Positions 6,985 to 64,000 of a stretch of 64,000 nt of DNA are shown here, one piece after another. Under the pieces are notes generated by a model, which was not told the origin of the DNA, made no database searches, and saw only the letters and a list, made by a program, of their open reading frames with translations. Location: positions 1 to 64,000 of the forward strand of contig NZ_CABDWS010000003.1 in assembly GCF_901447495.1 (NCBI RefSeq), written 5' to 3'. Each line of letters begins with the position of its first letter. Position 1 is the first letter of the stretch. A program made the translations under genes and the position numbers. The DNA is from Haloimpatiens lingqiaonensis. Lineage in GTDB: Bacteria > Bacillota > Clostridia > Clostridiales > Clostridiaceae.

Positions 6985-7235
6985 AAAATCCGTCCCTACA
7001 CTACTGTAGAGACGGAATATCCGCGGTACCACTCTAGTTGACTAATAAATTAGTCCACTTAAAAATTTAACGCTTAATGCGACTTACCCTACTAAGAATA
7101 CCAATTCTTTTTAGGCAGCTTCTCCAAGGTTCTCTTCCTTTTTTATCTTCTACAGGTCTCACACCATCTCCTGCTCGCTTGAAGTTAGATTAAAAAAGTA
7201 CTCTCCTCTTCACAGAATTTATATATTGGAATTTA
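6985..7235 (-). promoter_or_regulatory. T-box leader of argS with intrinsic terminator
   Basis: On the minus strand the leader carries GAGAGTA (stem I base), a distal loop near GGAGATGGTG, the T-box core AGAGTGGTACCGCGG (7021-7035) and a terminator in which CCGTCTCTACA pairs with TGTAGGGACGG (6990-7015), followed by ATTTTTAT. Uncharged tRNA would pair with the T-box bulge and block the terminator. In the likely specifier loop the sequence GGAAGAGAACC (about 7129-7138) offers AGA, an arginine codon, which fits argS. The specifier assignment is by eye. Confidence 0.93.
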
Positions 7236-62860: not shown

Positions 62861-62892
62861 GTAAATATATATTGTTAAGTAAGTGCCCTAGG

Positions 62893-63125
62893 AAAAAGCT
62901 GCATTTAATTCCGTGATAAAATTGAAATTTTCGACTGTGAACAGTACGCTAAGAACTTCTAAATGTTTTGAAATTTAAATCCCCTAAAGCCTTCAAACTT
63001 GCTCGTACCTCACTCAAACAATGAAGGCTTCTTAACGGAGCTTTAAATTTCAAAACAAAGAAGTTCTAAAGCTAATTCAATAGTCGAAAATTTCAATTTT
63101 ATCACTCCATTAAATGCAGCTTTTT
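62893..63125. ncRNA. Structured element, copy I (candidate RNA)
   Basis: Outer arms 62893-62936 and 63082-63125 pair at 41 of 44 positions; the three exceptions are a TCC facing TCC. An inner helix (62965-62979 with 63042-63056) has 15 perfect pairs, and a core stem AAGCCTTCA / TGAAGGCTT (62987-62995 with 63022-63030) has nine. Copy II at 63866 onward shares the loops but differs by paired changes in the helices. No open frame. Strand of transcription is unknown. Confidence 0.75.
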
Positions 63126-63378
63126 CAGTTACAGAATACTTTAATTAAATAAATGTATTAGTAAAACAAGCTATAATTATTTAAGTAAATGGAGTAGTTG
63201 TAGTTTTTCTTTTTAGGGGCTTAAAAATTTTTTTATTGGCGGCAGCCAGTCTAAATACGTAGATATGATTAGTATTTATATATAAGAATATATATTTTTA
63301 ATTGTTGGGTGAATAGGAACTTGTAGATAAGTAATAGTGAAAAAGTAAGAACTACTAGGTAAAAAGTCAAACGTTTAG
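63126..63378. other. Gene-free spacer with decayed repeats
   Basis: A+T-rich. Contains GTAGATAAGTAATAGTGAAA and AAAAAGTAAGAACTAC, akin to the TTACTTCTT arrays. No gene, terminator or promoter is convincing. Confidence 0.4.
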
Positions 63379-63492
63379 CACTTAAAAAGTGTTTTGGGCG
63401 TAAGCCCGCTGAGTGTAGGTGAAAGTGTAGCTATTTTGCGCCCTATCGTTATGCGGGTTTACCAGCCCTTTAAGCAAGAGCTCTTGAGAAAA
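63379..63492. ncRNA. G+C-richer compact structured segment (candidate RNA)
   Basis: Starts with CACTTAAAAAGTG, then GGGCGTAAGCCC (63396-63407) as a 4-base-loop hairpin. GGGCG (63396-63400) can also pair with CGCCC (63439-63443), and CCCGC (63405-63409) with GCGGG (63453-63457), so alternative or pseudoknotted folds are possible. It ends with CAAGAGCTCTTG, a perfect palindrome. Base composition differs sharply from its surroundings. No coding frame. A relic of a transposon-linked guide RNA is one idea. Confidence 0.5.
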
Positions 63493-63756
63493 TTAAGCTT
63501 TGCTGATACTTTTTACTTTTCACAAATTAATTATAAAAAACTCTTTGAGTTTTATTCTTAACTCTTACTTCTTACTTTTTACCTCTTACTTATTTTTCAC
63601 CTTTTCTCCCCTACAAACTAAGATTTATACAAACAACTGCCTTACGGCAAACTGAATTGAATTTTAGTTATTATTTTATTTTGATAAGTATCATATAACT
63701 TTTCGAAAGGCTACGCCTAAAAAATATTATGAGCCCTTTGCTATTTATAAATCAAA

Positions 63757-63785
63757 GATTTTCCATAGCAAAGTGGCGGAAAATC
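63757..63785. repeat. Short palindromic repeat, second copy
   Basis: GATTTTCC (63757-63764) and GGAAAATC (63778-63785) pair around ATAGCAAAGTGGC. The same unit occurs at 59799-59828 with three or four differences. Other small hairpins nearby include TGCCTTACGGCA and AGGCTACGCCT. Confidence 0.65.
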
Positions 63786-63865
63786 ATCCTTTAGTAAACC
63801 GTCCTCTCTCCATAACGATATATGCATGACCTGAAAAATCTGATTTTAAGGAAACAATAAATATA

Positions 63866-64000
63866 TTTTTTTAGACTATTGAGCTAGCTTTAGAAATTCT
63901 TTGTTTTCAAAATTGAATACCCGTTAAGAAGCTTTCATTGTTTGAATGAGGAACGAGTGAGTTTGAAAGCTTTAGGGTATTCAATTTTGAAAACATTAGA
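63866..64000. ncRNA. Structured element, copy II, cut by the window end
   Basis: Inverse orientation to copy I. Inner helix 63903-63921 with 63976-63994 has 19 perfect pairs; core stem AAGCTTTCA / TGAAAGCTT (63929-63937 with 63964-63972). The loop TTGTTTGAATGAGGAACGAG is nearly the same as in copy I, and the flank around 63871-63900 matches the copy I right side. The remaining right arm lies beyond 64000. Confidence 0.7.

Follow-up and report, generated by a model that had tools for sequence, protein, structure and literature searches.

The closest described counterparts of the element reported here are the REP, BIME and REPIN sequences with their RAYT (TnpA-REP) proteins of the Y1 HUH type, which are dispersed, high-copy, intergenic imperfect palindromes with a bulge (PMC3116915, PMC3733652, PMC6006769, PMC8266576). 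Like the present family, they occur as inverted dimers and are patchily distributed over phyla, their single copies are reported to derive from pairs, and they show the same preference for placement at gene ends (PMC3733652). For Y1 subclasses 2.1 and 2.3 no REP-like partner has been reported, subclass 2.1 comprising long proteins with an extra C-terminal domain, and subclass 2.6 is accompanied by atypical structures (PMC6006769). The TIR repeats of TIRYTs (PMC3733652) and the "atypical secondary structures" beside subclass 2.6 Y1 of Bacteroidota (PMC6006769) bear a likeness, compared by description only, in being near Y1 genes, lacking a GTAG foot and having genomic copies; in the few Y1 loci of Bacteroidota inspected here, the repeats are different from the hairpin. 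Integron attC sites form a direct array beside an integron integrase, whereas hairpin copies are dispersed and arranged in inverted pairs.

The window analysed here, positions 1-64,000 of contig NZ_CABDWS010000003.1 of Haloimpatiens lingqiaonensis (GCF_901447495.1), carries two copies of a hairpin unit of 150-300 nt, as compared to 20-65 nt in REPs, which usually measure 20-40 bp. Unlike REPs and REPINs, the hairpin family has several conserved internal loops and forms composites of ~0.5-1.7 kb with mosaic interiors. Two defining features of REP/REPIN systems are absent from it: the GTAG or CGTC foot, no foot tag being conserved across genera, and, in the ~100 Y1/RAYT-centred loci searched, a RAYT gene flanked by the repeats.

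Results

Both copies in the window fold (Table 1), as the sequence-only reading had described for a structured element present twice. When the full hairpins of copies I and II are aligned, they have 84 pairs in common, with 62 identical, 20 changed on both sides, two changed on one side, each gaining or losing a G-T pair, and none broken; five of the 20 two-sided changes are fully within the window. The four two-sided changes without a broken pair counted earlier thus underestimate the real total, and the pair types then named (G-C to C-G, T-A to A-T, A-T to G-C and C-G to T-A) are all present among the 20. The element holds no reading frame, as had been stated, and the failure to recognise its family is matched by Rfam, where no family matches the hairpin at the gathering threshold. 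Rfam hits obtained with a relaxed threshold, far below the gathering score, are nearly all plant or animal miRNA precursors, such as any long hairpin is expected to give, and assignment to a known RNA family was rejected. The sole Rfam match in the window is a T-box leader (7005-7222, minus strand, 140 bits). The description as two copies proved too narrow: the hairpin belongs to a dispersed family, in which neighbouring inverted pairs bracket larger elements.

Table 1. Features of the hairpin pair and its surroundings in the window
Feature	Position	Strand	Basis
Left terminal repeat of composite, ATTGTTAAGTAAGTGCCCTAGG	62871-62892	+	Left-end alignment; 22-site pattern match
Copy I, full hairpin	62880-63140	-	Loop-bearing reference strand (strand A) on minus; fold -102 kcal/mol, z -15
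Copy I core	62933-63085	-	Covariance model R1 match, 167.9 bits
Interior mosaic of smaller palindromic modules, without long reading frame	63141-63768	.	Repeats; modules recur in other composites
Conserved module GCGGAAAATCATCCTTTAGT, 5' of copy II strand A	63769-63797	+	Common to G170 (another genus) and copies of the same genome
Copy II	63831-64000	+	Cut by window end, extends on contig G000:C3 to ~64,080; portion inside window folds with z -7.9
Copy II core	63874-64000	+	R1 match 173.4 bits, reaching contig position 64025

Each unit is an imperfect palindrome with internal loops C-GTTAA-G / A and TGTTTGAGCG...GCGAGTTT. In a structure-blind alignment of 18 diverse copies, 96.2% of cells pair and two-sided changes are found at 27 of 49 pairs. 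With 123 distinct clostridial copies aligned to covariance model R1, which represents the hairpin core (152 positions, 49 pairs), 95.0% of cells pair, two-sided changes extend to 45 of 49 pairs, and the covariation reaches 0.688 as compared to 0.163 for shuffled data and at most 0.124 for slid structures. Across phyla the inner hairpin behaves in the same way (93.2% of cells paired, 19 of 22 pairs with two-sided changes, covariation 0.892 against 0.207 shuffled). The stems vary freely, while CGTTAAGAA, TGTTTGAGCG/GCGAGTTT and TTTAG are constant across phyla, and near-invariant positions in the alignments are CGTTAAGAA, TGTTTGAG, GCGAGTTT and TTTAG; this invariance is partly imposed by the loop pattern used in searching (TGAGCG, GCGAGTTT, TTTAG), of which CGTTAAGAA and stem pairing were not part. 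At least nine of ten inner-stem pairs are formed in 115 of 123 pattern matches, with the best offset allowed, and the bulge is exactly GTTAA in 62 of the 123. Since the loops stay fixed across phyla as the stems change, and with them an asymmetric bulge and a single G-T pair, selection acts on a folded form. This part of the earlier conclusion, that selection on folding implies RNA or single-stranded DNA, holds; its RNA side is weakened by the rarity of G-T pairs and the switching of stem subfamilies.

In six Bacteroidota and Nitrospirota loci (L120, L122, L160, L187, L192, L180) a second hairpin follows the first, and the loop of this second hairpin complements a segment immediately upstream (CTTGAT...ATCAAG; GCGGCC...GGCCGC; GTCC...GGAC), which may form a covarying pseudoknot. 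The strand A loop CTGTTTGAGCGTAGCGAGTTT translates as LFERSEF in one frame, and many genome annotations therefore probably list hairpins as small proteins.

The family is abundant and widely distributed. A BLAST search of the H. lingqiaonensis genome with copy I returned 53 matches at ~38 distinct sites, including the self match at 100%; the sister genome G002 has at least 20 copies, and tens of copies are present also in C. pascui and C. peptidivorans. The search of clostridial genomes that the sequence-only reading had proposed, here with R1 at E<=1e-5, gave matches in 77 of the 207 genomes from the host family, spread over 21 of 46 genera, with at least 14 copies per genome in many of the positive genomes, and fuller searches of eight genomes gave 3-29 copies each. 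Further copies and highly significant covariation, the two outcomes on which that reading had staked its proposal, were thus both found. The loop pattern matched more than 116 stretches in named genomes, in clostridia including Clostridium tagluense, bowmanii, frigoris, pascui, peptidivorans and others, and in addition in Sporomusa, Alkalibaculum, Flavobacterium, Sphingobacterium, Elizabethkingia, Bacteroides, Saprospiraceae and Nitrospirota; the majority of these matches were confirmed by R1, which detects 24 copies in one Bacteroides genome, 19 in one Saprospiraceae genome and 11 in Sporomusa ovata. Matches in Thermotogaceae and deltaproteobacteria are doubtful because they pair poorly. A phage or plasmid origin was rejected, with zero matches in phage and plasmid collections and poor pairing in two of three viral-contig pattern matches. 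The literature was searched for the loop sequence, its peptide or such clostridial repeats and none was found; the family is real, very widespread and, as far as the literature was searched, undescribed. Model-found copies are concentrated in one chromosomal region in genomes G110 (mostly 2.7-4.7 Mb) and G112 (mostly 2.7-3.6 Mb), and replication-strand bias looked weak as judged from coordinates in three complete genomes, origins not located. Tandem arrays of three to six hairpins were seen at G201:C1:418419-419035, with a RusA-like gene directly downstream, and at G001:C1:2421906-2423357.

Inverted pairs of hairpins have a single orientation. Among clostridial loci, all 21 inverted pairs closer than 2.6 kb are divergent and none is convergent, besides eight same-strand pairs, and 12 further inverted pairs in Bacteroides, Saprospiraceae and Nitrospirota are again all divergent; for the combined 33/33, p = 2e-10 under an assumption of independent pairs that related copies violate. 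The pair in the window brackets a noncoding mosaic of ~1.2 kb with terminal inverted repeats, the matching right end CCTATGCCATTACGTTACAA lying past the window at contig ~64066-64085, and between other pairs of the same genome lie 0.9-1.7 kb of noncoding mosaic, composed of smaller palindromic modules. The outer-end inverted repeat ATTGTGAAGTAAGTGCCATAGG occurs at 22 sites of this genome with no more than three mismatches, as compared to none for the reversed control pattern. Nested palindromic families in mirrored order (GATTTTCC..GGAAAATC, TTTTATTGGCGATAGCCAG, GGCGTAGCC and GCCGTAAGGC) were observed in the interiors (63141-63830 in the window; loci L005, L023, L030 and L384-L389). Composite interiors in other species contain gene fragments, and divergent pairs were noted around fragments of host genes, serine-hydrolase-like and nadB-like (G120:C2:73274-74416, G119:C115:1557-3972). 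Genome G170 contains near-identical single units, whose 5' module is common with that of H. lingqiaonensis, a different genus.

Comparison of orthologous sites revealed exchange between copies. At L003/L038 the full stem set differs between sister species, with the flank beyond ~97% identical, and copies are therefore replaced or converted as blocks. Part of the covariation accordingly arises when one copy converts another or a palindrome is replaced and, as copies exchange whole stem subfamilies, two-sided differences between paralogues should not be read as independent compensatory mutations. At other sites a composite in one species stands opposite a single hairpin in its sister, or the left and the right copy are retained in different species, which shows that single hairpins often descend from pairs. 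No empty site was found among the four orthologous sites compared, all of which are occupied.

An enzyme was sought beside the hairpins and by genome content. Clustering of flanking proteins found no recurrent family beside hairpins, the clusters being only orthologous neighbours from related species, and an adjacent enzyme was hence rejected. Most of the hairpin genomes examined encode PF01797 (Y1), and a 307-aa Y1 protein of H. lingqiaonensis lies at G000:C19:21477-22388. With a long (307 aa) and a short (196 aa) Y1 protein as queries in the 207 genomes, full-length RAYT-like proteins were found in 34/77 hairpin-positive as compared to 31/130 negative genomes (odds ratio 2.5, p 0.003, kinship ignored), short Y1 in 30/77 as compared to 30/130, and any Y1 type in 49/77 as compared to 50/130 (odds ratio 2.8, p 0.0005, kinship ignored); these presence counts were made by hand from tables, and the statistics ignore phylogeny. 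Around ~100 Y1/RAYT-centred loci only two strong nearby hairpin matches were seen and RAYT genes are not flanked, and PF01797 was absent at E<=1e-5 from two genomes, both MAGs, with 19 and 24 hairpin copies. RAYT was thus rejected as a REPtron partner, Y1 being modestly associated, not required and almost never adjacent. The cognate enzyme of the hairpin family was not found among these candidates, and the association with Y1 RAYT is only modest. Two 196-aa Y1 copies of H. lingqiaonensis are flanked by a different, unrelated hairpin repeat, CATAGATAAAGTAAACTAAACTTTAATCTATG (G000:C26:31965-37172, L270), and these genes and their repeat are likely a REPtron of their own.

Discussion

The family is probably, although far from certainly, a non-autonomous mobile DNA hairpin of the REP/REPIN kind, several times longer, and would serve as the target of a single-strand nuclease or transposase supplied in trans. 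This reading draws on the observed structure, covariation, copy number, phylogenetic spread, strict divergent pairing, inter-copy exchange and erosion of composites to single hairpins, and is favoured since terminal repeats, captured gene fragments and preference for gene ends are typical of REPs and mobile repeats (PMC3733652). A unit of 150-300 nt in single-stranded form would fold into an interrupted hairpin with fixed internal loops. Two divergent units make up a composite with inverted ends, between which the DNA varies and includes captured fragments of genes. The enzyme that would copy or move single units and pairs, acting in trans, is most likely a HUH-type nuclease or transposase specific for single strands; what it would recognise are the loops, the bulge and the paired state of the stem, not the order of bases within it. 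Single-stranded DNA as the active form, mobilisation in trans and the class of the enzyme are what we infer from this arrangement. The family is classed here as a non-autonomous palindromic mobile repeat, neither a member of the REP family nor a proven RNA.

Such a mobile DNA hairpin is more likely than an RNA gene. According to the latter explanation, the element would be a structured noncoding RNA or a cis-acting mRNA element, repeated by chance and acting as RNA read on strand A. The covariation-supported fold is shared with the structured RNAs of Rfam and the covariation is very strong, both within clostridia and across phyla; the bulge and one G-U pair are conserved, and tandem G-A-like motifs (TTGAAC/RTGAAC, TTTGAGC/GCGAGTTT) recur in the alignments. 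At pairs with a Watson-Crick majority, G-T slightly exceeds A-C on strand A (102 vs 58 in ~5,900 cells), which suggests that strand A is the folding strand. However, G-T thereby makes up only ~2% of these cells, and structured RNAs usually show far more G-U than this hairpin family, which differs from Rfam RNAs also in having no family match at the gathering threshold. Among co-directional neighbours, moreover, strand A is antisense in 39/50 (p 9e-5, loci not fully independent), so that read-through from the neighbouring gene would yield strand B. Entire stem subfamilies are exchanged in blocks, and the always-divergent pairing has no obvious RNA reason. Rare G-T and subfamily switching point to DNA-level processes, and action as RNA is considered unlikely.

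A different division of roles would make the composite a MITE, i.e. a double-stranded TIR element that an ordinary DDE transposase moves by its ATTGTGAAGTAAGTGCCATAGG ends and in which the hairpins are passengers. Like MITEs, the composites are noncoding, present in high copy number and carry a terminal inverted repeat at their ends, and some copies retain the TIR without the big hairpin and are followed directly by other modules, by a truncated hairpin or by an ISLre2-like transposase insertion. Unlike in MITEs, each end contains a conserved looped hairpin, and it is the TIR sequence that differs from genus to genus, whereas the hairpin loops are conserved across phyla. No target duplication was recognised by eye at composite ends, and neither a parent transposon nor an autonomous element with these ends was seen at the TIR sites inspected in the H. 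lingqiaonensis genome, where only modules or the ISLre2-like insertion were encountered; the ISLre2-like transposase adjoins one TIR copy and seems to have inserted there afterwards. The MITE explanation is thus regarded as distinctly improbable.

Intergenic copies with both neighbours identified (n=153, loci not fully independent) are in 69 convergent, 65 co-directional and 19 divergent gene contexts, and this strong downstream-of-gene preference would suit a bidirectional terminator or mRNA 3'-end stabiliser that spreads as useful between convergent genes, but termination requires neither fixed loops nor divergent pairing nor gene-fragment capture, and REPs share the same placement preference (PMC3733652), so that this role appears very improbable.

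Beyond the mobile DNA hairpin as such, a broader proposal, rather doubtful at present, is a cross-phylum mobile class, whose long looped DNA hairpin ends would be recognised by fold and loop sequence alone and whose divergent pairs would carry captured host DNA, with an enzyme that is maybe Y1 HUH subclass 2.1 or a new one.

The family carries a warning for the reading of repeats, as two-sided changes between copies of a palindromic repeat can spread by conversion and are alone no proof of a functional RNA. The covariance model is ready for annotating many unexplained intergenic repeats, and annotation of the hairpin would remove spurious small ORFs with the LFERSEF frame. Loops that are unchanged from clostridia to Bacteroidota, together with the abundance of the family, probably reflect a conserved cellular partner. 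Its discovery would put a name to a new nuclease or transposase that recognises hairpins, and could reveal what orphan Y1 proteins without REPs act on.
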